Source: Clitopilus passeckerianus (taxonomy: Eukaryota; Basidiomycota; Agaricomycetes; Agaricales; Entolomataceae). From it: 64,000 nt of DNA. Positions 38,939 to 63,718 of this stretch are shown piece after piece (positions within the stretch are counted from its first letter, which is position 1; every line of letters begins with the position of its first letter). The translations under genes and the position numbers were made by a program. The notes under the pieces were generated by a model. It worked only from the letters and a program-made list of their open reading frames with translations, was not told where the DNA came from and ran no database searches. The stretch covers positions 124,001 to 188,000 of the forward strand of contig CALYLX010000145.1 of NCBI GenBank assembly GCA_944990035.1. The letters are read 5' to 3'.

Positions 38939-39684
38939 ATGAAGCTATCCTCCGCCTTCGTCGCTCTTACTCCCGCTTACGCAGTGGTTGCTGCTCCTTC
39001 TCCCGCCCAGGCGGTCCGTGATATTTTTGTCTCGAACTGGATGCCATACTGATACCAGTTTGAAACAGGCCGAACGCAGCGCCGCTACCTACACTGACCC
39101 TCATTTCGGCAGCAAGCACTGGGCCAAGAAACCTCCCCAGGTGGGCAATTTCCATTATCATCCACGTCCAAGACTCACCTAAAACTCATCAAGGTAGAGC
39201 GTAACGATGCCGCTGAGACCGATACTGCATACGATCGCGGCAGGAGCTGGGCTGGGAAGAAGTTTGTTGCCGAGGTAAGGTTGGCTACCGTCGGATACAT
39301 CCAAGGCTTACCGGAAGGTTGTCAAGGTCAAACGTAATGAGGCAGCCTCCACCGACCCTCATTTTGGTAGCAAACACTGGGTCAGGACGATCTCCGAGGT
39401 GGGTTAATGACCATTATCGTACACATCCAAAGGCTTACTCAAAGCTTATCTACCTCAAACGTAACGAGGGTGCGGCAACCGGTTCTGAATATGGTAGCAT
39501 CAACTGGGTCAGGAAGAAGCTTGCACGTGCCCTCGAGAGCGTCAGCACGGACAACTTATTCCTGTTCAACCAAGCTTGGATCAAACCCCCCGTCGTGAAC
39601 GGAAAGAGGGCTATCCTCGCTCCCGACACCGATAGACTTGAGGTCTGCCCATACTGGTGCCCGGGCCAAAACATCCCGCACTAG
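38939..39684 (+). CDS. PRP1: repeat-containing secreted RiPP-like precursor
   Basis: Exons 38939-39013, 39069-39140, 39194-39274, 39327-39398 and 39445-39684 code 179 residues. All introns are phase 0 and each middle exon is one repeat. A signal peptide (MKLSSAFVALTPAYAVVAAP) is followed by units that start with ER or KR and contain the core T-D-x2-[F/Y]-x4-W. The cores are TDPHFGSKHW, TDTAYDRGRSW, TDPHFGSKHW, TGSEYGSINW, TDNLFLFNQAW and TDRLEVCPYW. This is the plan of Kex2-processed repeat precursors of dikaritin RiPPs: signal, then basic sites alternating with short aromatic cores. The first intron has a weak GTCCGT donor. If 39642-39683 is spliced out, the frame continues into one more homologous repeat (see next entry). 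Function is inferred; the family is not one I recognise. Confidence 0.78.
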
Positions 39685-40379
39685 GAAAAAGAAGAGGTGG
39701 AACGAGCCGTAGCGAGTGCTGACACAGATTTAGCGGACGCAACTGGAACTTGGCATGGGTCTCGACATATCAAGGATGAATCATTGTTGATCCACTGTTG
39801 TTTTGTACAATTGTACCTATTAAATGAAGTTCAGTGGTTTGCCACTCGTCTATTGCGACCTATCCCTTCGAGAGGCAGGCTTCACGTTGATCCGACCCGA
39901 TGTTGTCCTTCGCCTTCGGGATACCGAGAGAAGATAAAGCATCTTGACATAACTGACGTAAACCCATAGGGAGCTTATCTGAGGATTCCTGGCAACTGCG
40001 CTGGCGGCTTTCGATAAAGGGCGGCTCGTGGGGCCATTTCATGATTCTAATCCAGCGTGAGCCACACTCAGGGTGATCATGGGTTCGAAGATAATCAAAT
40101 AAACAGCTTCTTTTCACGAATACAGCTTTGTTGATCAGGTCGATAACGCCAAGGCAGACGCTCATATGATGATTCCTCGCGCCATGAATGCGTTGTGTTG
40201 GGGTTTTGGTACGTACGGCTCGGGCTTCATACACCATGTGCCATATGGTCATTCTCGCGGCGCAACAATGCTAAGAGGTATTACGACACTTCCAAATGGT
40301 GATCGATCTATGGCAGCAAGTTTAAAAAGTCGAAGTTGGTAGCATCCAAATCTACAATTTTGGCGTATCAAGAATCAAG
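39685..40379. other. Spacer after PRP1, with a possible extra repeat exon
   Basis: Just after the PRP1 stop, 39700-39780 reads ERAVASADTDLADATGTWH and then GSR. It is closely similar to the second repeat of PRP8 (ADTDPVDAIDVWHGSR), so it is a genuine repeat, either a terminal exon of PRP1 or an orphan copy. From about 39893 the sequence recurs near 41256 and 42985 as part of the triplicated module. Confidence 0.6.
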
Positions 40380-40797
40380 ATGAAGCTCATTGCCTCTATC
40401 GTAGCTCTGGCTCTGGCTTGCTCTGTCAACGCTCTACCAGTGAATGAGGTATGCCCTCAGTCTTCTGCTGCGTGACATAGCTCACTAAAAATATCACAAA
40501 TGACCCCCAGGCTGACCTCAGTGAGTTACTTGATTCATTGGTGGTCAACGTGGTCTAACTTTCTGCGACGGCATTGAAGAGGTAGCTGATACCGACGCGG
40601 CCTTTGTCCGTCCAGGTTGGGAGGGGTTTGAGGGGTCGGGCGCTCTGGTCCAGCGAGGAACTGAGAGCGCCGATAGCGACAAGATCCTGACCCAGCCTCT
40701 CTGGAAATTGTCGAAGGACGCCAAGCGAGGAACTGAGAGCGCTGATAGCGACAAGATCTTGATCCAGCCTCTCTGGAAGTTGTCGAAGGACAGTTAG
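40380..40797 (+). CDS. PRP2: repeat-containing secreted RiPP-like precursor
   Basis: Exons 40380-40448 (69 nt), 40511-40520 (10 nt) and 40580-40797 code 98 residues. The signal peptide MKLIASIVALALACSVNALP is followed by VNE, a micro-exon coding A-D-L, and the repeat exon. Cores are TDAAFVRPGW, SDKILTQPLW and SDKILIQPLW. The last two sit in near-identical units that begin RGTESAD and end KLSKD, separated by DAKRG, a Kex2-like site. The 10-nt exon is conserved in PRP4 and PRP6 with its flanking splice sites. A single intron from 40449 to 40581 would also keep the frame. It is a paralogue of PRP4 and PRP6. Confidence 0.8.
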
Positions 40798-41062
40798 CCT
40801 ATCACATCGGCTCTTCACAGTCTGACCACGCAGGTAAGTATGCGGCTGCATCCCCTGATACTCTCCTCTAATCGTCGTAGTCGACCTATTTGGTCCGTTC
40901 TTGTTTCACCACTTTCAAGACAGATGTAGATGTGGGCCCTTCAAGTTGATTAAATTGGAATTTGTATCTTTTAGTTCAAAACCTTGTTCAATGGCGATGG
41001 ATATCCTTCTCGTTGTCGACATTCATATAGAAAAAGCATTCAAGTTCTGTGTTGTCAAAACT
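40798..41062. other. 3' tail of module copy 1
   Basis: Shares sequence with 42390-42640 (GTTCAATGGYGATGGATATCCTTCT near 40985 and 42588), marking the module boundary. It contains GT-AG-like signals and may be a spliced 3' UTR. Confidence 0.5.
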
Positions 41063-41294
41063 CTTCAGCACTCAGTATTTCGTTGGACGTCGCTCTCACT
41101 CTCGTTTACGAGTGGTCTCTGCCCCCTTTCCCGCTCAGGAGATGTTCTCGTCTCCGCCTGGATGCCACATTGATACTGGATTTAAACAGGTCGAACGCAA
41201 CGATTCTGCCTACACGAACCCTCAATTCCGCAGCAAGTACTGGGTCGAGCGACCCGATGTCGTCCTTCGGCTTCGGGAAATAGAGATAAGATAA
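41063..41294 (+). pseudogene. PRP3: degenerate PRP1-type precursor
   Basis: Aligned to PRP1, the signal-peptide exon is present but its ATG is gone (ATT at the equivalent place) and the intron donor is destroyed (GAGATGTT). The frame stays open through the former intron into one repeat, VERNDSAY with core TNPQFRSKYW, then a short tail to the stop at 41294. The later repeat exons of PRP1 are missing. Without a start codon for the signal peptide this copy is unlikely to be functional. Confidence 0.75.
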
Positions 41295-41734
41295 AGCATT
41301 GTACCATAATCGACGTAAATTCGCCAAGAGGTCTTCTGACGATTCCCGACAACAACGCTGCCGGCTTTCACTAAAGGGCGACTCGTGAGGCCATGTAATG
41401 ATTCTAATTTAGCATTGGCCACAACCGAGCTGATCATGGGTTCAAGCACAGTCAAACGACGGCTTCTTTAAACGAATATAGCTTGTTGATCAGGTCGATA
41501 ACGTCAAAGCAGACGCCCATATGATGACTCCTCACGACATGAATCCCCTGTACTGGTACGTACGGCTCGGGCATCATGCACCATGTTAACACCATGTACC
41601 ATATGGTTGTTATCACCGCCGGCAATGTCATGGATGGATGACGACGCTTCCTAAATGGTAATTGACTAGCAGCAAGTTTAAGATGGCAGGGTGGTGAGAT
41701 TCAATCCTCCAGTTTTGGCGTATCAGGAATCAAG
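41295..41734. other. Spacer of module copy 2
   Basis: About 440 bases homologous to the spacers at about 39930-40379 and 43030-43407. No gene. Confidence 0.55.
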
Positions 41735-42344
41735 ACGAAGCTCATTGCCTCGGCCCTAGCCCTTGCTCTTGCTTTCACCATATCTGCTCTACCATTTAAT
41801 GAGGTATGTACCCCGTCTTGTATTGACAGACGCGACGAACTAAGAGTATGATGAATGACCCCTAGGCTGACCTCAGTAAGTTACTTAATTCTTACAGCCG
41901 TTTGCATATTGTTAGGCCACTGTAGAAAAAAGACGCGTAGAGGTGGAGCCAAAATTAATGACATGCGAAGGGGTCTGGACCGTCTGGTGCAGGCTCTGGC
42001 TCCGTCAGTTGCTCGTCTCCCCCTCCGCTTCCCCTGGTTTGAGTTCCGGAAGCGTCGGTTATCAGGAATTTCGACCCAGCTTGCGCACATATATTTTCCG
42101 CGATAGCCTAACAATATGCAAACGGCTGTAAGCGGTTAATGTGTTCTTATTTCTGCGATGGAGCGTTGGAGAGGTAGCCGATACCGACGCCCCCTTTGTC
42201 CACCCTGCTTGGCTTAAGAGTGAAAGGCGTGATACTGCGGACGCTGATAGTGATTCGATCCTTTATCCTCCTGCATGGGCGAAGGAAACCAAGCGAGATT
42301 CTGAAAGTGCTGATACCGACAAATGGGTTTTCCCTCCTGTTTGA
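41735..42344 (+). pseudogene. PRP4: precursor with lost start codon and a MITE in its second intron
   Basis: Homologous exons 41735-41803 (69 nt), 41866-41875 (the 10-nt micro-exon) and 42172-42344 would code 83 residues. The codon aligned to the ATG of PRP2 is ACG at 41735. The rest of the signal sequence (KLIASALALALAFTISALP) and the repeats remain intact: TDAPFVHPAW, SDSILYPPAW and a terminal TDKWVFPPV without the Trp. Second intron length is 296 nt instead of about 60 because a 242-bp MITE sits in it. Initiation at ACG is possible but weak. Retained cores suggest recent loss, or use of another start. Confidence 0.7.
41891..42132. mobile_element. MITE with perfect 27-bp terminal inverted repeats
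   Basis: The left end (41891-41917, beginning CTTACAGCCGTTTGC) is the exact reverse complement of the right end (42106-42132). The element is 242 bp and has no coding capacity. TTAAT occurs on both flanks, though not flush with the repeats, so the target duplication is not certain. It is inserted in the second intron of PRP4; the homologous introns of PRP2 and PRP6 lack it. Confidence 0.93.
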
Positions 42345-42692
42345 GCGAAGCATGCGGAGGAGGGACTGAAAGCGCTGAGTACCCTACTTCATCGGCTTGT
42401 CATATTTTGACACCACAGGTAAGTTTTCGGATGCACCTCTCGATACTCTCTCCTGATCAATTTGGTCTTGGATTTTGCGTTACATTCTCCAGTTTCAGGA
42501 AAGAGGTCAATGTGAGACTTTCAAGATGATTAGACTCCGGGGATTTTATAAATTGGAATTATCATATCGTTTGGTCCGAAACCCTGTTCAATGGTGATGG
42601 ATATCCTTCTTCAAGTTGTTGTCAATACTCATTCGCGCAAAATTGTTGAAGGTAGCGAGCTTTTGTGACGTCCGAGTCAAAGCCCTTCAGCG
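42345..42692. other. 3' tail of module copy 2
   Basis: About 350 bases homologous to 40798-41062. No gene. Confidence 0.5.
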
Positions 42693-42889
42693 ATGAGTAT
42701 TTCGTTGGGCGTCGCTCTTAAATTCGTCTACGCAGTGGCCTCTGCCCCTTTTCCCCGCCAAGGAAGTCCGCGATGTGTTCATCTCGGCCTGGATGCATTG
42801 ACACTAGTTTTAGATAGCTCAAACGCAACGATGCCGCCTATACGGATCCCCATTTCGGTACCAGACACTGGGCCAAGACGCCCGCGGAG
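42693..42889 (+). pseudogene. PRP5: degenerate PRP1-type precursor
   Basis: It keeps an ATG and a signal-like N-terminus (MSISLGVALKFVYAVASAP). One extra C in the run after CCTTTT, compared with PRP1 and PRP3, shifts the frame before the splice donor. The repeat exon 42818-42889 (LKRNDAAY, core TDPHFGTRHW, then AKTPAE and a GT donor) is therefore out of frame with the signal. No later repeat exons follow. One core remains, but the gene as read cannot deliver it. Confidence 0.7.
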
Positions 42890-43407
42890 GTGGGCTTTTT
42901 GCGAATGCCTTCCATGCCCACTCACTCTACATTCGATATTATTGAGGCGCAGAATCTTTCGATCGACTCCTCATTGATCCGACCTTAGGATTTACAGATA
43001 AGAGGACTCGGAAGCGTTGTGCGAGAGATTACGTGAATTCGCCGCCAGTCCAATGAGGATTACCGAAAATATCGCCAGAGAGCCTGCCGGCTTTCAATGA
43101 AGGGCGACCCGTGGGGCCATTTCGTACGTTGAATTCAGTATGGCGCGCTCGAGCTGATCATGAGTTCAAAGGCGATTGTAGGCCAGCTTCTTTATACGAA
43201 TACAGCGTTGTTGATCAAGCCAATAATATCAAGGGTGCGTTAGATTGGGACTTGGTATGTATAACTCGGGCATCATGTACCGTAAGGTTGGTCGTTATCG
43301 CTGGCCGGCGTAGTGATGCACGGGCGTACCATGCGACGTCCCACATGGTAATTGATTTAAAAGTTGGAGGGTGGTAAGATCCAATCCTCCAGTTCTGCCG
43401 TATCAAG
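42890..43407. other. Spacer of module copy 3
   Basis: About 520 bases; the right two thirds match the spacers of copies 1 and 2. No gene. Confidence 0.5.
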
Positions 43408-43916
43408 ATGATGCTCATTGTCTCTGTCATAGCTCTTGCTCTTGCTCGTTCTGTCTCCACGCTTCCATTGAATGAAGTATGCTATCACTCTTCTGTTGCC
43501 CGACATAGCTCATTAAAAGTATTACGAATGATCCTAGGTCGACCTCAGTGAGTTACTTGGTCCAGTGGTGGTTAAAGTGTGCTTACTTCCTGCAATGGTG
43601 CGTTGAAGAGGTAGCCGATACCGACGCAGCTTTTGTCCATCCCGCTTGGCTTAGGTCTGAAGGGTCGGACACTCTACCCAAGCGCGTTGAAAGGGTAGCC
43701 GACACTGACTCAACGTATACCCATCTCAACTGGCTTGGGGCTGAAGTGCGTGGCAGCGCAGATGCTGATAGTGATTTGATACTTGGGCCTCCCAACTGGG
43801 CGAAGAAAACCAAGCGGGGAACTGAAGGCGCTGACAGCGACCTGATACTTTACCCTCCCGCATGGGCGAAGGAAGCTAAGCGAGGAGCTGAGAGTGCTGA
43901 TACCGACCTAGTTTAA
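43408..43916 (+). CDS. PRP6: repeat-containing secreted RiPP-like precursor
   Basis: Exons 43408-43476, 43538-43547 (10-nt micro-exon, V-D-L) and 43609-43916 code 128 residues. A signal peptide (MMLIVSVIALALARSVSTLP) leads to four full cores, TDAAFVHPAW, TDSTYTHLNW, SDLILGPPNW and SDLILYPPAW. A truncated fifth unit, ESADTDLV, ends at the stop. Basic sites lie between them: PKRVER, EVRGS, KTKRG and EAKRG. This is the cleanest example in the cluster of the plan signal, KR, acidic spacer, [T/S]D core with Trp. Paralogue of PRP2 and PRP4; intact as far as can be read. Confidence 0.82.
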
Positions 43917-44280
43917 CAGCTTGAGGAGGTGAGTTGGTGGCTTCGTATCTTGATCTTCTTGTCGGATCGACCTAATTGACCTGTTAAGGTAGATCATAAA
44001 GGTTATAAGGCAGCGCTAGTTGTGGAACCCGAGGATGATTCGATGGAAGTTACAATCGTCGTAGTCTTGTAGTTCGCAAGTGTTCTTGTGAGGGTTAATA
44101 TCATGGATATACATCTTCCCATTTTTAAAGAAAGAGCCGAGCTTCAAGTGTGGTGCTAATGTAGCTTCAGGGATCTTCGGCGCTCAGTCTTTTCTTAGAA
44201 TTCGCAGGCTTGAAAGGAAGGTTCCCAAACGCTCTCGGACTCATGACTGGACAAGTGAAAAGCCTTGGTCACGTTCGCGT
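43917..44280. other. 3' region of PRP6
   Basis: About 360 bases up to the target duplication of the long-TIR element. No gene. Confidence 0.5.
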
Positions 44281-44288
44281 TACGGTCC

Positions 44289-45042
44289 CACCTAGTGTTC
44301 CCACACTTCAAGCCTCCATCAGGCTCGTTTACTATTGAGGCAAGCGAGCCTCATTAGGCTTCACGTTGGCTGATTCCGCAAACCAGCAATAAAACCTGGG
44401 ATAAAACCACTTGGGACTTAGCCAGAATTTACTTTTCAAACACCAGGCAGCCTCGGCGGGGTTCGGCGGGGCTCGGCTGAAACAAGACCACCCGATATGG
44501 TAAGTGGTATCAATAAGCGGGGCTCTCGTGACCTGCGACGCGTCGCTCATCGCGTCAACGCGCGTGCTCGCTGCCGGCCACCATGAGCACGAGTACTGGC
44601 TCGTTTTGGGGTGATATCCGGGTCATTTTGTACGGACTACGTAGATAACATATTTACAGTGTACTTTAGACTAATTAACTCGAATTCAAAGCTCTGAATA
44701 TGCAGAAATGAGGAAATCAATTGATAGGGTCAGGAGGAGCACCACACCTATCTCAAGAACAGATATAGGAGTGGTCAAGCGGTTTTACAGGGGTATTTCG
44801 AAGTATATTAAGAGCCTAGGAAGCATGTATCTAGAGCCATGAGATTAGAACGCATGGCACAATTATCAAACCTTTGCGATCTCACTCCAGGGAACAATCT
44901 ACTGAGATTTTTATGGGCTCAATCTGTAGTACGTGACGTGTATATGTAGTGAGTACTGTAAACGTCCATCTTTGCACTATTACCTACCTATCAATACGTT
45001 GGAAATTGATAGAGACTTACATTATATCTGAGAGAGATTGGC
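44289..45042 (+). repeat. Left 754-bp terminal inverted repeat
   Basis: Reverse complement of 46184-46937. The stretches I compared were identical, including a mirrored 72-codon ORF (44332-44550 minus, 46676-46894 plus) that translates identically. Symmetry ends at 45042 after GAGAGAGATTGGC. Confidence 0.93.
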
Positions 45043-46183
45043 TGGTGTGTGTTCTGCATTTTACAGCGTCTTCATCTCATTGATCTACTGTTATGGCCCA
45101 TATAACAGCTATCTGTATAGTATTAGTAGCTAACACGTACGTCTCCGTGCATCTGTTCTCGGCGTATCAGTACAAAACGCCTTGGAAGCGAATGCAGTAA
45201 TTCCGTTGTAGACCATCATAGAACGCAGTAATTCCCATAAGTCCTGGCTCGTAACTTGACCCTACATATACTTTATTAGTTTAATACGATAAATTGCCAA
45301 TTCCGATGATGTAATTACTCGTTTCGAGCGGTTTTGTCTCGGATGCGCCACTAACTGCATGTGGTGACTTCTATTTGCTCTGCGTCATAGTTCACAAGTT
45401 CATGTACTGTAATACAGCTGATTGTATTTATTTTGTGTATAATACAGGCCATTGAACACCCCTGGCTTCCCCGATCGCTATGTAACCACCAAACCATTTG
45501 ATCACTCAGACTGGTAGTATTTCACGCCTAGAAAGTGAATATATATCTAATTCAGAAACCTGACGCGGTAGAGTAGTATAATACAATCTATAGAACTATT
45601 TTAAGCCGCTCCGAACGAGTTAGGATGAATGTGGAAGGACAGAGTCAAGGGATACTGTGGAAACGGCCGTCGAAAGCGCCATCACTCAGTACAAGAGTTG
45701 ACGAGGGAATGCATCAATCTGGTCATTTCATGCTTTCTGGTATCTTCTTGCTTCCACAACGCTCTCATACCTTCCGGAGTAGCTTATAATAGTAGACATA
45801 CGTTGTATACGCAACATACACAGCCAAGACCAAGTGTTTCAAATGAGAACCAACGATCCCGGACTTCAACATACCTCCTTTATGATGGCTTTCCCGTTGC
45901 GCCCAAATGATTCATTACTCGGCGTAATCCTGTTTTTTATCACTGTATATCAGAGCTAAGTATCTATAAAATATCTCTGAAAGCATTTTTACCGGTCTAT
46001 TGGGGGTATTCGGAGAGTTAGGAGCCTAAGAAGGCAAAACAAGTGATACTCCTGACTGAACCATTTCAGACTCATTCCCGAGAACATAGCACCTTCGGAG
46101 GCACTGTAAGCTATGAAACTACTTGATTTTAGCAAATATATGGTATACCGGAAGGTGGTTGACCCAGTATACAAGTGATATAG

Positions 46184-46937
46184 GCCAATCTCTCTCAGAT
46201 ATAATGTAAGTCTCTATCAATTTCCAACGTATTGATAGGTAGGTAATAGTGCAAAGATGGACGTTTACAGTACTCACTACATATACACGTCACGTACTAC
46301 AGATTGAGCCCATAAAAATCTCAGTAGATTGTTCCCTGGAGTGAGATCGCAAAGGTTTGATAATTGTGCCATGCGTTCTAATCTCATGGCTCTAGATACA
46401 TGCTTCCTAGGCTCTTAATATACTTCGAAATACCCCTGTAAAACCGCTTGACCACTCCTATATCTGTTCTTGAGATAGGTGTGGTGCTCCTCCTGACCCT
46501 ATCAATTGATTTCCTCATTTCTGCATATTCAGAGCTTTGAATTCGAGTTAATTAGTCTAAAGTACACTGTAAATATGTTATCTACGTAGTCCGTACAAAA
46601 TGACCCGGATATCACCCCAAAACGAGCCAGTACTCGTGCTCATGGTGGCCGGCAGCGAGCACGCGCGTTGACGCGATGAGCGACGCGTCGCAGGTCACGA
46701 GAGCCCCGCTTATTGATACCACTTACCATATCGGGTGGTCTTGTTTCAGCCGAGCCCCGCCGAACCCCGCCGAGGCTGCCTGGTGCTTGAAAAGTAAATT
46801 CTGGCTAAGTCCCAAGTGGTTTTATCCCAGGTTTTATTGCTGGTTTGCGGAATCAGCCAACGTGAAGCCTAATGAGGCTCGCTTGCCTCAATAGTAAACG
46901 AGCCTGATGGAGGCTTGAAGTGTGGGAACACTAGGTG
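46184..46937 (-). repeat. Right 754-bp terminal inverted repeat
   Basis: Reverse complement of 44289-45042, of equal length. Near identity of the arms indicates a young insertion or arm homogenisation. Confidence 0.93.
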
Positions 46938-46945
46938 TACGGTCC

Positions 46946-47770
46946 GGAGTTGTGACATGTCACATAGCGCATACCCGCCGACGCTCAGCGCAAACTGGAC
47001 CCTCGAGCAACCCTCGAGTTTGACAAGTGCCACGGAAAGAACAGTATATACCAGTCTCGAAACCACCTCTTTCCTGGCTCGGGACAATGTGAAAGAAAAG
47101 AGAACCTTTGAATGGCCCTCAAATAGACACAGAATCTCGTACTTGGAGAAGGCTGCTTGAAGGCTGCTCTGCACGACCGTCATTCATGATCGGACTACCT
47201 TGAACGTCCGAGTCTGACAGTCCTCGGTCCTTCAATACTTCGCGTACCACCCCATTACGTCCTACTTTATTCATATCTTGTGTTTGACGTGCTACGTGTC
47301 TTTGGATCCTGTTGGTGGCTTGCCGAAGAACCCTACGAAAAGAAGTTCCACTTCCCACCCATAGCACTATCCCACCGTGCTATGTGTCTGCAATGATTCT
47401 TCTAACAACTTGACAAAACTGGAAGCGTATATAGCTTTTACTAACACATATCTCTAGTCGGGCAAACTGAACAAAGGTTTGTATGACAACTAATTGAGTC
47501 TCGCGCCAGGCTTCGAATAGGCTTACTCTGAGAAAACAACAACACATACTCTCGGTGGATAATATCCACTAATTCAGCCCCTCTGACATACCCATGCTAT
47601 AGAATGCACGGCTGCTGAAATCTTTTTATAGGTTCTAATGTGGCCAACAATGTCATTGTTAATAGGCGGTAAAATAATCTCGTCGCCGGTGGAGCCCTTA
47701 TATTTCTTCCAGTTTAAAAGGCCATGGATGCGACGGGTTCTTTCATCCTCATAAATCAGTTTAAACCAAA
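46946..47770. other. Intergenic region right of the long-TIR element
   Basis: About 825 bases with no supported gene; it ends in the PRP7 promoter. Confidence 0.45.
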
Positions 47771-48031
47771 ATGAAAGTACTCGTCGCTACTTTCTCCTCC
47801 TTGGCTGCTGCCGTTGCCTTACCATCTGAAGGGGTAAGTCACCACATATCCAGCCCTCTGCAAACCTTACCACTTTGCTGACTTGCCTATCAATAGGGCG
47901 GAAACCCAGTTCTGAGCGGTGTGGACACCGACACTAAGTACAAGGATCATGTCTGGGGCGACCGTGCTCTGGAGAACGCAGACACCGATACCAAGTACAA
48001 AGATCACGTTTGGGCTGGCCGCGCTGTATAG
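47771..48031 (+). CDS. PRP7: two-repeat secreted RiPP-like precursor
   Basis: Exons 47771-47833 and 47897-48031 code only 65 residues. A signal peptide (MKVLVATFSSLAAAVALP) is followed by SEG at the phase-0 intron, then two units with an identical core, TDTKYKDHVW. The units read SGVDTDTKYKDHVWGDR and ENADTDTKYKDHVWAGR, each ending in Arg. The small size, exact duplication of the core and Arg after each unit make this the simplest member of the family. Confidence 0.8.
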
Positions 48032-48443: not shown

Positions 48444-48731
48444 ATGAAGATCATCTCAATCGTCTCTCTTGCCCTCGCATGGGTTGTATCGGCTGCACGA
48501 GTCCCCGGCAGCCAGGTAAACTACGGTGCATTCTAGATAGCGTATGATCGCCTACCGATGGTATAGATTCGTGCCGTACAAGGCGCAGAGACAGACCTTT
48601 TGTTCCTCTTCAATCAGCATTGGGCAACAGAGCCGGACAGGGATCGAATTGCCAGGAGTTCAGAGGCAGACACTGACCCAGTCGATGCCATCGACGTATG
48701 GCACGGATCTAGAACTGATAAATTGACCTGA
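48444..48731 (+). CDS. PRP8: two-repeat secreted RiPP-like precursor
   Basis: Exons 48444-48515 and 48567-48731 code 78 residues. Signal peptide MKIISIVSLALAWVVSA, then a phase-0 intron after the Gln of VPGSQ. Two cores follow: TDLLFLFNQHW, close to TDNLFLFNQAW of PRP1, and TDPVDAIDVW followed by HGSR. The second matches the orphan repeat after the PRP1 stop. An IAR site lies between them. The shared cores show that PRP1 and PRP8 are related although they are 9 kb apart. Confidence 0.78.
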
Positions 48732-49328: not shown

Positions 49329-49754
49329 ATGAAGCACGCTGCCGCTGTTATCATTTTTTTCACCCTCCCCTTCTTTATCGCCGCTGCCCCTGCTCCGGTA
49401 GAAGAGGTTGGTACTCGTCTCACTGTCCCATTGGTAGGACCATTCTAATCAAATACTCAGGCTGCACGAGGTCTCGAGGTTGCTGATACCGACCTCGGAT
49501 ATGGCAGCGCTCATTGGATTGTCAATCAGAAGCGGAGCGTAGTCGCGGCTCTCGATAACGCAGATACTGATAGAAATGGTAACGATAAATACTGGGTCAA
49601 ACACAAAGAACGGTCTACTGCGAGTGCTGAGACTGATCAGGCGTTCGACTTCGGTTGGTCTGATGGACAGTGGAAAAAAGTTGAGCGTAGAATTGTGTGC
49701 TGCTTTGTGTATTCTCTAAGCTATCTCCAGAGTGATTATCGCCGCACTGAATGA
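49329..49754 (+). CDS. PRP9: repeat-containing secreted RiPP-like precursor
   Basis: Exons 49329-49406 and 49461-49754 code 123 residues. The signal peptide begins MKHAAAVIIFFTLPFFIAAAP and the exon ends APVEE at a phase-0 intron. Cores are TDLGYGSAHW, TDRNGNDKYW and a longer TDQAFDFGWSDGQW. Basic sites stand between them: ARG, NQKRS and HKERS. After the last unit come VERR and about 23 residues with a Cys pair that look unrelated to the repeats. The second core lacks the aromatic residue at position 5 but keeps the Trp. Confidence 0.8.
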
Positions 49755-51047: not shown

Positions 51048-52432
51048 ATGAAGCTCTCTGCGGCTTTTGTCCTTGCCGCTCTCTCTGCTCTCACCGCCGC
51101 TGCCCCAGCTTCGGAGGTGCGTTTGTTCATCCCCCCTAAGTATTCTCGTCCTTGACCAGTACTATCCACCACAGTACTCGCCTCCCGACACCGATATTAC
51201 TTTTACAATCAGCCGCGCCGCCAATGCTTCTAAATGGCAAGTCAGCGTAAGTGCGTCTTTGGATCGTTCACGGACACAAAACTGAAGCTCAATTCGCAGC
51301 GGGATCTTGAAGAGATCAAGCGTGCTGTCGAGGGTACTGCTGACACGGATATCACGTTCACTATCAGCCGCGCTTCCAGCGCTTCTACGTGGAAGGTCAA
51401 CGTGAGTGACTGGTTTACGAACATCGTTCCTTCAAAGTCTTACCCGACAAACAGCAAGCTAGAGATGTCGACGAGCTTCATGACATCCTCAGGCGTGCCA
51501 CCGATGGTACAGCTGACACCGATATTACTTTCAGCTTCAAGAGGGTCGCCGATCCCGCTGTAATCAAGTGGAAGGTTGAGGTGGGTAACTCTACTTGTTT
51601 AGAGAAGAACATCAAAGTGAACATATTTAAATATTCGTAGGCTCCTGAAGCTCGCGGGGATATCCTCGAACGCAGCGAGGCCAATACCGACATTACCTTC
51701 AACTTTAAAGAGGCTGATACGAACTCCGATAAACCTGCTGCTATCAAGTGGAAGACCAAGGCGAGTGGTTCCTCCCTCTCAGATAGAAACTGGCATTGAC
51801 GGACGCGAAGGCTCCCGACGCTCGCAGCGAGATTGACGGACGCAGCGAGGCTAATACCGACATTACCTTTAACTTTAAGGAGGCTGATGGGGAGAAACCT
51901 GCTGCTATCAAATGGAAAACGAAGGTTAGCTACGTTTCCGAAAGAGATGGTCAGTATTAATCATCAGGTAGGCGCCTGAGGAGCGTGGCGAGGCCAATAC
52001 CGATATCACCTTTTCCTTCAGAAAGGCTGAGAGCGACGGAGCTCGCCCTGCATGGGGTGTCAGTGTAAGTTACTTGCGTACTCTTGACATGTTAGGGCAC
52101 GGGTTCTAATCTTCTACAGGCAAATCGCCGTGATATCGAAGAGCGAGGCGAGGCCAACACAGATATTACCTTCTCCTTCAGGAAAGCTGAAAGCGATGGA
52201 GCTCGCCCTGCATGGGATGTTAGTGTAAGTTACTTGCGTATTCTTGACGTGGGAGGGCATGAGCTCACAAATTCTACAGGCGAATCGCCGTGATATCGAA
52301 GAACGTTCCACTGCGGATACCGATATTACCTTCACCATCAGCTCCCAGCCCAGCACTGGCAAATGGAGATGCTGCGTAAGTATTCATGTTTGATCCACCT
52401 TGTGCTTCGCTGACCTTAATACACAGTCTTAA
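51048..52432 (+). CDS. PRP10: eight-repeat secreted RiPP-like precursor, one repeat per exon
   Basis: Ten exons (51048-51116, 51160-51246, 51300-51401, 51455-51580, 51641-51760, 51811-51924, 51972-52064, 52120-52224, 52280-52375, 52427-52432) code 305 residues. Every intron is phase 0. Exon 1 is the signal peptide (MKLSAAFVLAALSALTAAAP). Exons 2-9 each carry exactly one unit: in seven of them an Arg-containing site (IKRA, LRRA, ERSE, GRSE, ERGE, ERST) precedes the core, then [D/N]-T-D-I-T-F, 9-16 variable residues, and a conserved Trp near the exon end. Exon 10 codes one Ser and the stop. The intron 51761-51810 is GC-AG. Exons 7 and 8 are near duplicates, showing expansion by exon copying. 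The core is longer than in PRP1-9, yet shares the TD and Trp anchors. Confidence 0.85.
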
Positions 52433-54963: not shown

Positions 54964-55589
54964 ATATTGGGGCAAAGATTCAAGGCAGACTTTGAATCAC
55001 TAGTGCTATGTTATATGACAGCTTCAAGCGGGCGCATAAAGATGCTTGCTTCCTGCTTCAGGGGATTCTGTAAGGCATTCTGACCTGAGGTAGGATGAAC
55101 GCGTCAGAACCTAACCATAAATATTGGGTTAGATCCCGAGTCTCCAGCATGACGATGAAGGCGAAGCTGACATGTCTTGTTGTCAAATGTGGCTCAAATG
55201 TGGGCTTGAAATCGATAAAGCTTTTGCGGGCCCCAAACACTTGGCCTGGGTACTATAAGGCTCTATCTGTGCTCTTGTCGAGTTCTTGGAAGCGGAAGCA
55301 AATATTGACTGTGCCATTGCGAACTTGACGTTCAGGCTTTCCTGGTGGTGGCAGTGGCAGGTCAGGGTAAGTCCAGTCTATTTGGTTTAGACTAATTTAA
55401 CAAACAAAGCCCTCTCGGCTCCTCCTCCGATGCCGAAAGACGCTGGATTTGGCTGGGTCATGGTGGCCTGGACGACCGCCAGCGCCTATGATGGTTTATC
55501 GTCGCCAACACTGACCTGTCCACCGCCGAGGGCATCGAGCTGGTATCTCAAGTGCTGGTGCAAGTCTTAGCTGGTTCTCACAATTGTGA
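54964..55589. other. Intergenic region, P450 copy 2 to GT90
   Basis: About 630 bases between divergent genes. A frame near 55430-55560 reads ANTDLSTAEGIELVSQ but lacks a Trp anchor and a start; not supported. Confidence 0.4.
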
Positions 55590-57798
55590 ATGTCGCCGCT
55601 ACGCTCCAGAAATTTCAGGCGCAGATTCGCCATTTGCCTCGTCGTCGTTGCACTCATTCTTTACGCCCACCGAAGTCTTTCGGCGTTTCTTACGAATCTC
55701 AAGTTTCGCCTTACTCCGGATGTACAACAAGACGATGAGGATCCTTCCCTAGATGAAATAGAAGACAAGGACCCAGCCACACCAATCCAGACGCCCTTTT
55801 GTAGACTTCCTGCCCAAGCAACTGCAGACCCAGAGGAGCTCGATGAGGAATTTCCAGAATTGCCGCATACCTGGAACTCAGATGGACTACTCGTAGTCAA
55901 CCCAGACAGCACGACGCACCCAATTCTAGAGCTGATAGAGAAAGCTGAAGCGGAATGGCAGGCGAAGCAAGACAAGGCTAGCAAAACTCTTGACGATGCA
56001 GTCACCGAGTATAAACGAAGATACGGCAGGAAACCACCTCTTGGATTTGATGACTGGTGGGACCTTCGTCGCTTTGGTTCGTTTACCCAACTAATACCAG
56101 CCTAGGTGGGATTACGCCCAAGAAAACAATGTTCTCCTGCCGGATGAATACGATACCATCAACCGTGAACTAGAACCTTTCTGGGCCATCTCCCCTACAG
56201 ACCTCGCGCGCATACAGCGAGAACAAGAAAATACCCCAGATTCATTTACCCTTGCCAAAAACGATACCCACGACTCTCATCTTGCAGCTAAAGCATTTTC
56301 AGACCCAGTACACTGGAAAGAGAAATCTTTGTTACGAGGGTTGGACGAGATCATTAACCTTCTGGTTCCCATAGAGGACGCGTTGCAGCCGTTCAGGGTG
56401 ACTTTTTCGCCACATGATAATCCCAACCAACTGGCGGACTGGAACCTTAGGAAATTGCTGCTCGACGCTGCCAAAGCAGGCGAATGTATGCACCTCCTTT
56501 CGCAACATTGCTCATGAAACTAACTGCCTCGCGCCCAGATATCGACCTGAGCAAACTTGACGACCCGAGGAATTTTGGCTTCGCTTCCACATGCCCACCC
56601 AACTCTCCAGGCCGGCCGAAGGACCTAGATGCACCAATTGACCAAACTGTACGCCCCACACCCAGGAACTCTCCGAAGACGTTCATCCATAATCACCGCT
56701 TGTCAATGGACCCGTGTCAGCACCCCTCAATCTTTTATCACCATTCCCAATACGTTGCACACGATCTTTCTCCAGTCCCACCACTCCCCGTCTCCAAACT
56801 TTTCCCGAAACTCTCATACTGCACAACCCCTCTGTTCTTTGATGTTCAGACGCCGGGATTCATCTCTTGGGTAGACGAAGTCAATCCGAGGGAGAACGAT
56901 CTGGAGTGGGAGAATAAGACGGATCACAGGCTATACTGGCGAGGTAGCAACACTGGAATGAACGCCGATGAACGTACGAGGTGGAGGCATTCGCAGAGGT
57001 TTAGGCTCGCGAATCTGGGACAGACTGTTGACGGCAATACGACTGTTCTGCTTCCTAGAAACGAGACCAGCAGCCGGCGGCAAAATTTGGGCAATGGGAC
57101 GTCGATCAGGAATTCTTTGTTGAACCCTGCCATCTTCGACGTCCAGTTGACGGGACAGCCGCTTGGCTGTGCTGATGATTATTGTGCCCAGATGAAGAAG
57201 GAGTATGAGTGGCTGTTGCCCGTTGATGCGCATGGAGAGGCTGCGGGAAGACATAAGTATGTCGTTGATGTAGGTGTTGCTATTCCGGCTGTATTTCTTG
57301 AGCTAACCATGGACGTTTTCGGTGGCACAGGTGGACGGTAATGGATGGTCAAGCAGATTCAAGCGATTGATGACAAGTAATGCTCTCGTATTCAAAGCTA
57401 CAGCGTATCCTGAATGGTACTTCCGCTATTTTTTGTATCATAGTTCTATATCGCTAATCCCATCTCTCTTCCAGGTGGTTGGACCGCTCCCAGGCCTGGG
57501 TCCATTACGTCCCTATCCAAGTGGACTACTCTGATCTATACGACGCCTATCTCTTCTTCCAAGGAGGATTGTATGGCGAAAATAACCACGATGAATTAGC
57601 GAGGAAGATCGCATCTGCTGGCCGACGGTGGAGCAAGTCGTTTTGGAGAAAGGAAGATATGACGGTATATTTCTTTAGGTGAGTCCGACTAGCTGGGTGC
57701 AGTTATCTGGTGTATTGATCTAGTCGCCACATAGGCTACTTCTGGAGTATGCAAGGGTTATGAGCCCGGATCGGGAGGCCATGTCATATGATGGATGA
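55590..57798 (+). CDS. GT90 (CAP10-type) glycosyltransferase
   Basis: Exons 55590-56056, 56106-56485, 56539-57269, 57331-57416, 57475-57678 and 57735-57798 code 643 residues. A type II membrane protein: a short basic N-terminus, a helix ([18 protein letters not shown]) and a lumenal domain. Family marks include [39 protein letters not shown], the catalytic-domain block [11 protein letters not shown], and a [18 protein letters not shown] stretch typical of CAP10/CAP59-like sugar transferases. Splice sites at 56056/56106 and 56485/56539 were chosen because they restore these motifs. Family members transfer xylose or glucose in cell-wall glycan or glycoprotein synthesis in the Golgi. There is no evidence that it acts on the nearby peptides. 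Confidence 0.9.
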
Positions 57799-58083
57799 GG
57801 ATTCCTGGAAGGAAACCCTGTGGTTCGCAGTGATGTAATTTTGCGCCATTAGATACATCCTCAGGCTTATTGGGATGTTCGAGACTTAAAGAAGACCTGG
57901 GATAGATGTTATGCAACATCAGCGCCAGTAGGACAGGCGTCATAGCTCCTCGCACGCGCATTCCTTACTCCAAATGTAGTTTCTCTTTCGCCTGAAATAT
58001 GATTAATACTGGGTATCTTTCTACCTATGAGATATATCATTATCGTAAGAGTGTATAAATGTGTCTACCTGATCAGTAAATTC

Positions 58084-59145: not shown

Positions 59146-60107
59146 GCACTATTGTCGGTGCAGCGACAGCTTGAGGTGATGGCAGCGAGGAGACAGGAAA
59201 TTTAGGTTGTTAATGTTTGGCTTTATTTCGTTCCGTTACCCATGCCACACAGCATCCAACAGCATCCATCATTCTTTTTCTTTTCAGGCACTCAGCTCAG
59301 GTTTGACACTTGCCAACAAATTGCCAGTGGTCCTACGCCGGCGGTTTAGGACCTTAGTATGTTCAAGTTTCTCGGTGGAGGGACGATCTGGGGTGAAATC
59401 GGTGATCCGCTCCATCCTGGTAACAATCTCTATTTTGTCATGTTTACTAGAACTCGGAAGAGTACTTACACGCTTGCGTTCAAGTTCATGTTGACCTTTC
59501 GAGTTTGAGTCAAATCAGGTCATCCAGACATTTACTGTGCTCACTTCTCTACCCAGAACACTATACGGTTTCGAGAAAGATGACATTGTCGCCCCCCCAT
59601 TGATTCTTGACAGCGGAAGTTCGTACCCTCCGTCTGTTGGACATGCTGATTGGTGTGAACACGCACGATTTGAATATCGGTTCCTGAAATTAAAGTCAGC
59701 TTTCGGTCAGCTGGATGTTCTTCTGAATGCAATCAGGTTCCCATGACCGATTCAGAGCATCTGGACTGTGTTATCAGGTTTCCGGTGACATCACACCACC
59801 GTGATGCAGTTCTCCGGGACCGCTTCTGTATGTTGCCGGGGGGTCGGTATCTCTCGAGAACATATCCTATTGCAACTGTGTAACTTTCTTTAAAAGTATT
59901 CATCCTGTCGCTGACTGACGGGTGGCAGGATGAACGACTTGGCGATCCCATCCCTCATGTCGTGACTCTCACTCCTCTTTGGGCTGTTTTCAGGCTCAGG
60001 CCAGCTCTGGAGGATAAAAGCCTCGACGTCGGACAGATTATTGATCACTGCCCAACCACCCGCTACTGCCTCACGTTTTAAACTCTAGTCAAACCACCAT
60101 CATCTTC
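59146..60107. other. Intergenic region, membrane protein B to lectin
   Basis: About 960 bases, no supported gene. Confidence 0.45.
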
Positions 60108-60687
60108 ATGCCTTTTGCTGCCGGCCACACTTACCGAATCGTTAACGTCGGTACTGGAACTTTGCTCGATAGCAACGGAAGTTCGAGTAAGTTCTCTGTG
60201 TCTGCTATGATCATATGGAGCGTGAAATAATCCCACTTCTCAACAGTCATTGCATCGCACCGTAACGGAAGTGACAGCCAGGCCGTAAGCCCTTGCAAAC
60301 CACTGCAATAACTTTAACCGATAAAACTTTCGTAGTGGAAAGTAACCAAGGACTGCGACCAATACGTGTTCACCTCGACCAGTTCGGGGTTATACCTAGC
60401 CCCAGATGGGCCAGCAAAGAATAACGGACGGGTTGTAGCTCAACGAACGTTTTTCTCTTGGCCAATGACGAGGGATTTGAAGGATAGTGATGTTCTTCAG
60501 TGAGTTTGTTTAGCTTGGTTTAGAATGTAAAGTGCGGCATTGTTAACCCGGATTTCATTATTTAAGATTTAGGCACTCTATCCCAGGCCCGGATTATGTT
60601 CTAACGGCGTCGGAAAATGGTGATTCGGTGATGATTTATGGAGAAGGAGGAAGTAAAGAACAGTGGTGGAGGTTTGAGAGGATTTGA
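60108..60687 (+). CDS. Small ricin-B/beta-trefoil lectin-like protein
   Basis: Exons 60108-60186, 60247-60284, 60336-60499 and 60573-60687 code 131 residues, the size of a single beta-trefoil. It has no signal peptide, as is usual for cytosolic mushroom lectins. Beta-trefoil-like blocks: HTYRIVNVGTGTLLDSNG, then a QAWKV turn (the Q-x-W motif), YVFTSTSSGLYLAPDG, and a closing EQWWRFERI, again a Q-x-W. Introns are 51-73 nt. Such proteins bind galactose or GalNAc sugars and often act against predators; that role is family knowledge, not shown here. A related beta-trefoil protease inhibitor fold is an alternative. Confidence 0.75.
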
Positions 60688-61204
60688 GCAAGCGTTTGTG
60701 AGGTAATCGCTGCACGATTGACCTCATCGCTCTCAGATGTAACTCTAACTTGAAGTCGAAATACGGTGTAAAAGTTCCTACTCTTCTCTGACTTTCTGCA
60801 TCACAATCATCCGCGCGGAGGCTAAAAGACCTGTTCATGAAAGAAAAGTTGGCGGATTTAAGGCAGCAGATCGAGCCTCAACGGCGCACCTGGCCGTGAT
60901 TCTACTTAAAAGGGCATGTCCGAACAGCTCCGATCGTTCAATCCAGGCCTTTCCGTATCACCCTGCACATACTCTCTCTGCATCCCCCTCCTCGGCAGTG
61001 AGCACCTTCAATTTACTCGGGCAGGTTGGGAAAGACGAAGCTCGACTAGGTTCCTGAGGCTTCGAAGCGGTCTTACGTACGACGTGCCAATTTCAACCTT
61101 GCGAAGGCTTCTATCAGGATTTCGGGCTTGTGAGTTTGCAGCCGTCTTATCTGGCTCAAGATGTTAGCCTTCTCCCCTTCATACTGTGACAGTCTCTACT
61201 CGCC
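60688..61204. other. Intergenic region, lectin to UstYa 1
   Basis: About 520 bases. An 83-codon ORF at 60916-61167 has no features and probably lies in the 5' leader region of the next gene. Confidence 0.45.
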
Positions 61205-62209
61205 ATGCCTCAGTCAAACCAGGGTTATACGCAGCTACCAGTACATCTCAGTAATATCTTAGAGACTGAAGTAGACGAAGGCAAGATCGACCCGAACGAA
61301 CTAGGGAATCCTTCAAGTTCTCGAACTAAGAAACGGAGCCCCAGAGAGAGACTGCTCTTCGTCGCTCTTGTACTTCAGTCACTTGTCTTCCTTGTCTTTC
61401 TACTGTCCTCTAGGAGGAGCTCGTATGCTGAGCGTGTCAGTGATACTCCTCGTCTGTATTGTAAGTTTGAACAACCTCCTGGAATCGTCAAATTGCTCAA
61501 TCCTTCAGCTCCCGTCATACCGCTTTTGCGTGAAGAAATCAAGGTTTTCTCTGGTGGATTTCAGCAACGCAGTATCTACCAAGGGGTCGGAGAAGACGTA
61601 GACCAAGCCTGGGACGAGCTATACGGAGGTACGCGAATGAATCTATACTTGTGCGACACTGCTGATCACCGCGACAGAAACAACATTGAGACTTCCTTAT
61701 TCCGAGGCCATTCAGCTACCCAATAAGACGTGGCCTATTGAGAGTGATCCCGGGTACTACATCGCCCAGCTCGATGTCTTCCACCAGCTCCATTGCTTGG
61801 TGAGCCATCTGCATGTCCCCTTTCTGCTATGCGCCAGGCCTGATTCCACACCCAAGAACAAGCTCAGGAAACTTCTCGAAGACCCCGGGAATGCAGGTCC
61901 CCACGCCGAGCATGATCATACTTCTCACTGTGTCGATTCTTTACGTCAATACATAATGTAAGTGGTCGTTTCATTTCGCAGACGAAATCGCTAACCCAGG
62001 TTAGGTGCAATATTGACATCTCCGTTGTGGTATGGCAATGGAGTGAGGCTTCGAAAAAGGTGCTCCCTAATCTGTCCTATCCACACAAGTGCTACAACTT
62101 TGAGGCGATACGTGAATATGCTCGGGCGAACAAGATTGACGGGTACATCAATCCAGACGTTTTTGTAAATGACGGCCTCCCCGATCCGCCAGTAATACAT
62201 ACCAGGTAG
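61205..62209 (+). CDS. UstYa-family (DUF3328) oxidase 1
   Basis: Exons 61205-61460, 61509-61628, 61678-61799, 61857-61957 and 62005-62209 code 267 residues. A cytosolic N-terminus rich in charged residues is followed by one membrane helix (about residues 50-68), then the family block LYSPV. The two HxxHC motifs that define UstYa proteins are both complete: HQLHC at 161-165 and HTSHC at 187-191, followed by VDSLRQYIMC and a Trp-rich strand VVVWQW. The C-terminal PHKCYNFEAIREYA block is also typical. Members of this family catalyse oxidative ring closure of precursor peptides in ustiloxin, asperipin, phomopsin and cyclochlorotine pathways, probably in the secretory pathway. It is head-to-head in 3' orientation with UstYa 2 and lies about 9 kb from PRP10. 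Confidence 0.93.
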
Positions 62210-62740
62210 GAATTCTAGAAACACGCAATTTAGTCACGGTACGAACGGTGTTTACTAGAATACGATGTCTATTATTTCTTGAAAGAATACAGACCAATGG
62301 ATTATACTACAACTAACTCAGCACACTTTTCAATTCACACATGCTTGGTGCTTCTCGTTTCGATATGCGTATTCGCGGACTGATCCAAAGCTTGTCGTAA
62401 AGCGTCGCGTACGATTCATCCCAGCTGACAGTCCAGGGCGGTCTTCGACGGTATCACTGTGACCTATAAGAACGCCAGGTCCTTCTTTATAGCCAGGTAC
62501 GAAGGAAAGCTTCCGGCTTCTAGCTTCAATAGAGCCAAAGATAACGGTAGGGGCCGGGCGGATGAAGGAGGCGACACAGACGAAACTCTTCTAGCACGAA
62601 CGTAAGATTGAATATTGCGTTAGCATCCGAGCTAGTGCATTGCATTGAGTGTGCTTTCTAGAACCCAGCTATTGCCATGCACCGAAGAAATTAATTTCGT
62701 CACTGTGTTGCCCAATTTTGGAAATATGCCAGTGTACCAA
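62210..62740. other. Region between the two UstYa genes
   Basis: About 530 bases between the convergent 3' ends. On the minus strand around 62340-62560 a worn stretch reads SWDESYATLYDKLW, which recalls the W-x-x-L-Y segment of UstYa proteins, but it has no frame or splice chain. It may be a fragment of a third copy. Confidence 0.35.
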
Positions 62741-63718
62741 CTACTGGATAGATACAGGTTCTGGAAGATCGTTCTCTACGAAGGCAAACTTGTTGAAGCC
62801 AGGTCGCACCTGATTTTCTCTCGCCCAACGATGGATCGCCTCAAAATTGTTGCACTTATGGGGATGAGTAAAGACCGGATTCGCTGCATGCTCCTCGGGC
62901 TCCCAGTTCCATACAATGACAGAGACACCTATAGACCCCGGAATTAGCAGTGGCGTAATGGCCGATTAAACCGAGTACGTACATGATGTACTGACGGATT
63001 GAATCGAGGCAATGCGACATATGTTCGGGGGTAAAACCTGGATGATGATCACCACCCATAACTCGTCTGATAGAATTCTGAGAAGATATCCTTTGAATCA
63101 GCACGAGTCCATGACGTTTGAAAGAGACCGACCAAGCAGTGTAGCTCATGGAAAACATCGAGCTGAGCGATGTAGTGACCTTTGTCGTTTTCAATCGGCC
63201 ATGTGCGGTTTGGAAGCAGGAGGGCCTCCCCCCTGCCAAGTCGCATCGTTGTTCCTGTTAACAAGATATTTAGGCACACGGAAGGGGCTTGACCTGAAGG
63301 GATGCAGGCTATACCTTGGTATAGATCCTCCCAGGCGCTCTCTATCTCGGTGCCATTTCCTTGGTAGATCGTTAGGTCCTTGAGTCCGTCTGAAAACACC
63401 TTGATCTCATCGCGCAAAAGATGGCGTGCAGGAGCTTGAAAAAGTCAGTGCTATCAGAGAATCATTACTTTGTCTTGGCTCACAGAACAGAACGTTCTCA
63501 GCGTCAGAGGCTGGATGCCTGATGGTGATGAGGGTCAACGCAGCTGCAAGAAGGATAATGCCTTCTAAGGCTACGACAATCGTCAGGATCCTATTTATGC
63601 GATACAGACGGGTTGCACGAGAGTATTCGCGATGACGATAACAATCCTTCTCATCATCAGGTAGCCCAGATGGAGAGGTTGACACAAGAGGGAGCTCCTC
63701 AGAGGACCTGTCGGTCAT
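62741..63718 (-). CDS. UstYa-family (DUF3328) oxidase 2, C-terminal frameshift
   Basis: Minus-strand exons 63484-63718, 63315-63434, 63133-63254, 62983-63077 and 62741-62928 have the same phases as UstYa 1, and exons 2 and 3 have the same lengths (120 and 122). There is one membrane helix (about residues 44-66), then LFSPARHLLRDEIKVFSDG, HELHC and HMSHC, followed by LDSIRQYIM. In the last exon the expected residues after IMC are missing and the frame shifts. The literal reading stops early at 62856-62858. The homologous frame (SVIVWNWEPEEH, PHKCNNFEAI) stays open to TAG 62741-62743. About 11 bases appear deleted just after the acceptor at 62929. Both metal-binding motifs lie before the break, so activity may survive. 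Pseudogenisation or an assembly error are the alternatives. Confidence 0.85.

Follow-up and report, generated by a model that had tools for sequence, protein, structure and literature searches.

A candidate dikaritin-like UstYa peptide system with Trp-bearing repeat precursors in Clitopilus passeckerianus

Repeat precursors with a shared acidic-aromatic-Trp signature recur beside genes of the UstYa (DUF3328) family in the genome of the basidiomycete Clitopilus passeckerianus. The analysis started from a 64,000-nucleotide stretch of contig CALYLX010000145.1 (C142:124001-188000, hereafter the window), which contains ten precursor-like loci, K1 to K10, and two UstYa genes; an eleventh precursor, K11, lies just past its end. 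These loci are best read as a lineage-expanded, dikaritin-like UstYa system of ribosomally synthesized and post-translationally modified peptides, characterized by a Trp signature and, at four loci, by a one-repeat-per-exon layout. Specifically, K1-K11 probably encode secreted Kex2-processed repeat proteins (KEPs) whose cores are oxidized by UstYa, a reading to which a probability of about 0.72 was assigned. The genome comprises 64.8 Mb in 160 contigs. The window region recurs in collinear order on contig C93, mostly at 86-95% DNA identity, which suggests that both nuclear haplotypes are present in the assembly.

Recurrent pairing of repeat precursors with UstYa genes

The UstYa/DUF3328 profile PF11807 gave at least 68 exon-level matches in the genome. 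Eleven loci of the UstYa1 group, one per haplotype pair, were surveyed over roughly 10 kb each (C142 at 44, 67, 90, 96, 185-187 (the window), 201 and 816 kb; C26:340, C74:297, C94:75 and C94:147 kb); the UstYa loci on C59, C8, C114, C4 and C116 were left out of this survey. Repeat precursors lay beside UstYa at 10 of the 11 loci (Table 1), and none was found in the ~10-kb stretch at C142:201 kb. The full D-x-x-[F/L/Y]...W signature was carried at six of the ten precursor-linked loci, and second copies with the same repeats were present at C141:556 kb and C123:135 kb. In the other UstYa group (C66, C67, C69 and C139), no repeats were found in a scan of only about 1.5 kb on each side.

The codon pattern A-D-[ST]-D-x-x-F matched the genome 92 times and a reversed control 15 times. 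Thirty-two of the 92 matches fell within 3 kb of PF11807, a zone of 0.34% of the genome in which 0.3 matches were expected, and 38 within 11 kb. All six clusters of the pattern (at least two matches within 1 kb) were within 10 kb of PF11807. Only 2 of 56 single matches were within 11 kb, which indicates that most singles are background. The singles farther away include K2, K4 and K6. A second pattern, K-R-[DE]-E-A-x-x-A-D, requiring neither F nor W, gave 38 matches against 0 in the reversed control. Thirty-five of them were in or beside UstYa-linked precursor loci, and the remaining three (C43, C48 and C134) were one identical sequence away from any UstYa. The co-occurrence of precursors and UstYa genes, which a first-pass annotation of the window had proposed as a check, was thereby found within this genome. 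Considering that several of the precursors share a leader and are paralogues, the linked loci are not independent origins of the motif.

In addition, C93:97.7-99.7 kb shows hints of a further precursor near UstYa genes, namely one match to each of the two codon patterns and weak similarity to a leader.

Core signature and coding constraint on two haplotypes

The expression [DEN][TS]D..[FYLIMV].{2,9}W gave 15 six-frame matches in the window, all 15 inside 38.9-52.4 kb, compared with a mean of 1.8 and a maximum of 5 in 60 first-order Markov simulations. The first-pass annotation had described the core as T-D-x-x-[F/Y/L]-x4-W. Among 34 [TS]D units in the eight readable window models, including three of the 11 in K10 that are incidental SD pairs in linkers, 14 fit the strict form [TS]Dxx[FYL]x4W and 26 fit with a variable gap to Trp; a fixed x4 spacing is thus not the general rule. 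In K10, TDITF is followed by 10 to 16 residues before Trp, and K9 units such as DTDRNGNDKYW have no aromatic residue at the expected place. On C93, 23 of the 26 motif cores are kept, K6 losing two and K7 one. Based on this variable gap, the units without an aromatic residue and the losses on C93, the broader rule is an acidic residue three positions before F/Y/L and a later Trp, under moderate rather than strict constraint.

The precursor exons are constrained as coding sequence. Their C93 copies stay in frame in the haplotype projection, with the exceptions of K7 (projection incomplete) and the K9 tail (end uncertain) and with K1 exon 1 left out. In K2 and K10, exons differ in length between the haplotypes by multiples of three; intron length differences are not of this kind (C142/C93: K1 52/54; K10 53/55 and 47/49; UstYa1 57/52). 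The ratio of nonsynonymous to synonymous substitution (dN/dS) between C142 and C93, pooled over seven precursor genes with K4 excluded, was 0.24 in cores (small counts, with 21 nonsynonymous and 22 synonymous differences over all cores together), 0.37 in linkers and 0.70 in the first 22 residues. For single genes it was 0.14 in K10, 0.19 in K1 (four of five exons), 0.88 in K7 and 0.12 in UstYa1.

One repeat per exon was found at four loci, namely K1 (in part), K10 and the precursors at C142:67 kb and C94:147 kb, the splice sites of the last being approximate only. The C142:67 kb precursor has six repeat exons, four of them of 66 nt, and introns of 55-60 nt. Neither this layout nor the D-x-x-[F/L/Y]...W signature was found described in the open-access literature searched.

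The UstYa pair and its nearest precursor

Spliced UstYa1 matched PF11807 with an E value of 5.6e-42 and 144.5 bits, and pieces of UstYa2 scored 35.6 and 29.2 bits, all above the curated cut-off of 25. The HxxHC motifs read HQLHC and HTSHC in UstYa1, and HELHC and HMSHC in UstYa2. Both genes had thus been placed in the right family at 61.2-63.7 kb by the first-pass annotation, with the amendment that UstYa2 is frameshifted on the C142 haplotype. There, 11 nt are missing compared with C93 directly after the exon carrying the second HxxHC, which shifts the frame and takes away a stretch containing one Cys and one Asp that do not vary among 20 homologues. C93 is free of this frameshift and of the K4 defects found on C142. 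A reading of the UstYa genes as pseudogenes from internal stops was dropped after intron placement, save for the real frameshift in UstYa2.

The closest named relative of UstYa1 is a Coprinopsis protein with 43% identity, and 15 of the 20 homologues come from mushroom-forming genera and three from ascomycetes, the other two having no named source. A midpoint-rooted tree was built from 176 columns with 15 of the 20 database homologues; its inner branches include several with support under 80, and intron read-through and X at stops occur in part of the rows. In this tree, both window UstYa proteins and ten proteins of precursor-linked loci formed one clade (support 96), separate from the proteins of Coprinopsis, Mycena, Schizophyllum, Armillaria, Marasmius and others and from three ascomycete proteins, and the C66/C67/C139 group was distant (support 100). 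Against PDB sequences, UstYa1 gave a single chance-level match (E 0.23). An AlphaFold model of homologue P0002 (predicted local distance difference test 72.7, predicted template modelling score 0.55) has a membrane helix at 34-64 and one HxxHC on each of the helices 151-166 and 179-195, in outline agreement with the description of CctR, a characterized DUF3328 enzyme. A third UstYa gene, with HQLHG as its first motif, lies at C142:201 kb, 13 kb past the window.

K11 is located at C142:188188-188716, 0.2-0.7 kb past the window end and about 0.47 kb from UstYa2, the window ending 0.28 kb past the UstYa2 start. It opens with MKLSLVLLTALAACLTQAAPTPLK..., followed by DIFFY cores of type AEDIFFYNWGEE, mostly KR-bounded, with KR-(APEEHAEDIFFYNWGEEVNA)-KR as the repeat unit. 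There are five cores on C142 and six on C93, and all C93 cores have Trp. Of the KEPs at this locus, K11 is the most conventional and lies nearest to the UstYa pair, so it may be the main substrate of this pair. The earlier proposal that secreted-looking repeat precursors are linked to the pair was upheld in general and shifted in detail: the nearest precursor is K11, outside the window, and K1-K10 lie 9-22 kb from UstYa1, K10 at 8.8 kb.

The precursor array and neighbouring genes

The ten loci announced at 38.9-52.4 kb by the first-pass annotation could all be told apart, and all are on the plus strand (Table 1). Eight have readable models (K1, K2, K4 and K6-K10), K3 and K5 are degenerate remnants, and K4 on the C142 haplotype has no ATG, an early stop by which it ends before the C93 copy, and an insert of about 0.23 kb in intron 2. 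This short insert (~41899-42128) has inverted ends and is missing from C93. By inspection and cross-matches, the pairs K1/K2, K3/K4 and K5/K6 seem to represent one two-gene unit present three times in tandem. Intron 5 of K10 (window 51761-51810) is a GC-AG intron of 50 nt kept on both haplotypes; a K10 model that instead placed a GT donor inside exon 5 was rejected.

The K1, K2 and K6-K11 models begin with M[KM] and a hydrophobic stretch, putative secretion signals judged by eye, and the cores are repeated, each of the eight window models having between two and eight motif units, and K11 five. Dibasic KR/RR/KK sites, not between all cores, are present in K1, K2, K4, K6, K9, K10 and K11, and K7 and K8 have monobasic Arg sites only. 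Repeated XA/XP dipeptides of the STE13 type were not seen by inspection: the sites precede GTES, DEAA, EEAT and SEAA, and an AP start occurs only in some K11 repeats. A kexin-type convertase domain (P_proprotein) was found at two places in the genome. Searches against 5.8 billion proteins returned 7168 candidates for a K2/K6 alignment, none at E up to 10, and 167 candidates for the C142:46 kb precursor, none at E up to 1. Thus, the precursors look lineage-specific, or else are too short and repetitive for protein search.

The cytochrome P450 gene noted earlier between the array and the UstYa pair was confirmed, and a GT90-like gene also lies in this interval. A long open frame there had no Pfam match.

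Moreover, the array is interrupted at ~44241-47012 by about 2.8 kb of inserted DNA that has long inverted ends and is missing from C93. Its ends carry an identical open frame at 44332-44622 (-) and 46604-46894 (+), and it is a polymorphic mobile element. Outside the system, a GH7 cellulase-type gene and a NACHT-like nucleoside triphosphatase gene (Pfam NPHP3_N) were seen at window 8072-9750 and 19721-21601.

Table 1. Precursor loci, UstYa genes and neighbours (window coordinates unless a contig is named)
Feature	Position	Strand	Description
K1 precursor	38939..39684	+	five exons; YTDPHFGSKHW-type cores, mostly one repeat per exon; four of five exons also read on C93
K2 precursor	40380..40797	+	cores DTDAAFVRPGW, DSDKILTQPLW, DSDKILIQPLW; KR/QR sites; gene model and C93
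K3 remnant	41070..41294	+	degenerate K1-type copy, one repeat; by inspection
K4, K2/K6-type copy	41735..42344	+	broken on C142 haplotype; gene model and C93 comparison
K5 remnant	42694..42900	+	degenerate K1-type copy, one repeat; by inspection
K6 precursor	43408..43916	+	cores DTDAAFVHPAW, DTDSTYTHLNW, DSDLILGPPNW, DSDLILYPPAW; two of four do not keep the motif on C93
K7 precursor	47771..48031	+	two DTDTKYKDHVW cores; monobasic Arg sites only; first Trp replaced by Arg on C93
K8 precursor	48444..48731	+	cores ETDLLFLFNQHW and DTDPVDAIDVW; monobasic Arg sites only
K9 precursor	49329..49754	+	three cores; 3' end uncertain; C93 frame differs past last core
K10 precursor	51048..52393	+	nine exons, eight of them repeat exons, each with one (D/N)TDITF...W core
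Cytochrome P450 gene	52891..54996	-	several exons; PF00067 in three of seven pieces scanned
GT90-like gene	55590..57682	+	possible bystander; one piece, PF05686 E 3.3e-4, under curated cut-off
UstYa1	61205..62209	+	five exons, 267 aa, membrane helix, two HxxHC motifs; intact on C93
UstYa2	62741..63718	-	frameshifted on C142 haplotype by 11-nt deletion after second HxxHC motif
UstYa-linked precursor	C142:44 kb		ADSDATFHRSSNGGWYYG x9, one a variant
UstYa-linked precursor	C142:67 kb		GDAAFIPVGGRTTYGP x6 with variants; Tyr for Trp
UstYa-linked precursor	C142:90 kb		ADDDIVFLPQSIGGWAPG x5
UstYa-linked precursor	C142:96 kb		ADADATFLHNWGL type x3
UstYa-linked precursor	C142:816 kb		RPLWNGEW type x3; signature absent
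UstYa-linked precursor	C26:340 kb		EADTFLQRGIYWP type x4
UstYa-linked precursor	C74:297 kb		ADTDLGFRLGSPAGW x2 and one variant
UstYa-linked precursor	C94:75 kb		RPLWNGEW type x2; signature absent
UstYa-linked precursor	C94:147 kb		(E/D)TSLFPKFVW x3; acidic residue shifted by one

Proposed pathway and alternatives

In the proposed pathway, Golgi kexins would cut the K1-K11 precursors at dibasic and some monobasic Arg sites, releasing peptides in which an acidic D-x-x-[F/Y/L] segment is followed by Trp. UstYa, in the same membranes and with two copper ions, would then oxidize these cores. Considering that kexin cleavage takes place in the Golgi and that a DUF3328 enzyme resides on Golgi, endosome and vacuole membranes, enzyme and substrate should share one compartment. 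The UstYa pair would most likely serve K11 first and maybe K1-K10 too, and the P450 perhaps adds a further step. The oxidation would most likely connect F/Y/L with the side chain of Trp, with loss of 2 H, or otherwise consist in hydroxylation or desaturation; as the first-choice bond, the F/Y/L-Trp link is put forward tentatively. To our knowledge, a cross-link to Trp made by UstYa would be new chemistry, and none was found in the literature searched. The calculated [M+2H]2+ values are 1184.0136 for K11 APEEHAEDIFFYNWGEEVNA (1183.0058 after loss of 2 H), 1052.5153 for K6 GTEGADSDLILYPPAWAKEA (1051.5075 after this loss) and 1238.5254 for C142:46 kb DEAAVADSDATFHRSSNGGWYYG (1237.5176 after this loss).

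A bolder and rather doubtful extension is that basidiomycete UstYa enzymes use a substrate class of their own, in which an Asp-guided D-x-x-[F/L/Y] is cross-linked to a downstream Trp, lineage-expanded to at least 10 precursor-enzyme loci, some with each repeat as an in-phase exon. If so, exon gain, loss or alternative splicing could alter the peptide mixture.

The strongest alternative, a serious though not a favoured possibility, is that UstYa modifies the cores by hydroxylation, desaturation or halogenation and forms no macrocycle. DUF3328 enzymes are reported to hydroxylate, halogenate, isomerise and macrocyclise (PMC12435403), and UstYa homologues to desaturate phomopsin residues (cited in PMC10512285). 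Against this alternative, the recurrent pair of an aromatic residue or Leu and a later Trp suits a two-site reaction, which is suggestive only.

It is unlikely that K1-K10 are ordinary KEPs giving linear signalling or defence peptides, with UstYa acting on K11 only or elsewhere. In favour of this reading, mushroom KEP peptides detected so far, from Coprinopsis, Lentinula and Pleurotus, are reported as linear or minimally modified (PMC9769878), other genes separate K1-K10 from UstYa1, and no UstYa was detected, nor any HxxHC frame seen, in the 10-kb stretch around the signature-bearing C141:286 kb precursor. However, the same acidic-aromatic-Trp signature is found in UstYa-adjacent precursors at five other loci, and both codon patterns are strongly enriched near UstYa.

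Several observations besides the linear mushroom peptides weigh against oxidation of these cores by UstYa. The array lies 9-22 kb from UstYa1, compared with 1.6-2.9 kb at the other pattern-checked loci, and UstYa2 is broken on C142. The signature is absent at two of the ten UstYa-linked loci (C142:816 and C94:75 kb) and altered at two more (C142:67 and C94:147 kb), and the C26-type precursor (EAAEADTVLQRYGYWPKR) also occurs at C141:286 kb (L053 5333-5533) and C79:305 kb with no PF11807 nearby. The last K11 core on C142 has no Trp, three of the 26 cores lose the motif on C93 (two through Trp and one through Leu), and K7 and K8 have no dibasic sites.

A lack of coding function in most of the ten loci, as chance open frames or decayed repeats, would suit the degenerate K3 and K5, K4 on C142 and the dN/dS of K7, which rests on few sites, but is highly improbable in view of the 15 motif matches against 1.8 simulated, the exons in frame on both haplotypes and the low dN/dS of K10 and K1.

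Comparison with known systems

Borosins carry an N-methyltransferase fused to the precursor, and cycloamanides combine an MSDIN precursor with a prolyl oligopeptidase; enzymes of neither kind were among the 30 sequences Pfam-scanned, and no search aimed at them was made.

The ascomycete dikaritins (ustiloxin, phomopsin, asperipin-2a and victorin) share with the present system a multi-core precursor with a secretion signal and Kex2-type sites, both putative here, and linked UstYa genes with two HxxHC motifs. They also have an acidic residue before the core aromatic, as in the EDYXI of ustiloxins and phomopsins (PMC6339444). In contrast, Trp stands here in place of the Tyr/Ile partner, the acidic residue is three positions before the aromatic residue or Leu, at least 10 precursor loci form one array, one repeat per exon occurs at four loci, and the system is known from genes alone. 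Cyclochlorotine, which the first-pass annotation had counted among the dikaritins, is a non-ribosomal peptide, though tailored by DUF3328 enzymes (PMC12435403). CctR is reported as a binuclear copper enzyme of Golgi, endosome and vacuole membranes (PMC12435403); it and the other cyclochlorotine DUF3328 enzymes resemble the present proteins in HxxHC(x)nHxxHC, the N-terminal membrane helix and the placement of each motif on its own helix, and differ in acting on a non-ribosomal peptide.

In mushrooms, the KEPs of Coprinopsis, Lentinula and Pleurotus (Vogt 2022, PMC9769878) are secreted repeat precursors, as the present ones probably are, some with Trp-ended cores, and peptides from their expression in Pichia possibly came from single-Arg cleavage. 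They differ in giving linear peptides, several with STE13-type XA/XP trimming, and the text of that paper searched contains no mention of UstYa/DUF3328 under that name. In Pleurotus ostreatus, 16 UstYa-like genes are reported, of which six are expressed during development (PMC8893723).

The closest precedent is Umemura 2020 (PMC7329392), in which 103 of 1680 basidiomycete KEPs were near DUF3328 genes and a UstYa-linked type, P-3, had a repeat with W and P in genera including Galerina, Psilocybe and Coprinellus. The gene pair and the phylum are the same, and the P-3 repeat also contains Trp, so the UstYa-linked KEP kind is itself already known. The main text of that study states no D-x-x-[F/L/Y]...W rule, P-3 being compared here by description and not by sequence. 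New here are the acidic-aromatic-Trp signature shared over several linked loci, the array of at least 10 precursor loci and the repeat-per-exon layout. Umemura 2020 asked whether basidiomycete KEPs are rarely cyclised or have a cyclisation motif unlike that of ascomycetes (PMC7329392). With its concrete candidate signature, its many pairs of enzyme and precursor and two haplotypes for a natural comparison, the present genome opens this question to peptidomics and co-expression, and the array together with the recurrent pairing makes it testable whether mushrooms produce this kind of modified peptide.

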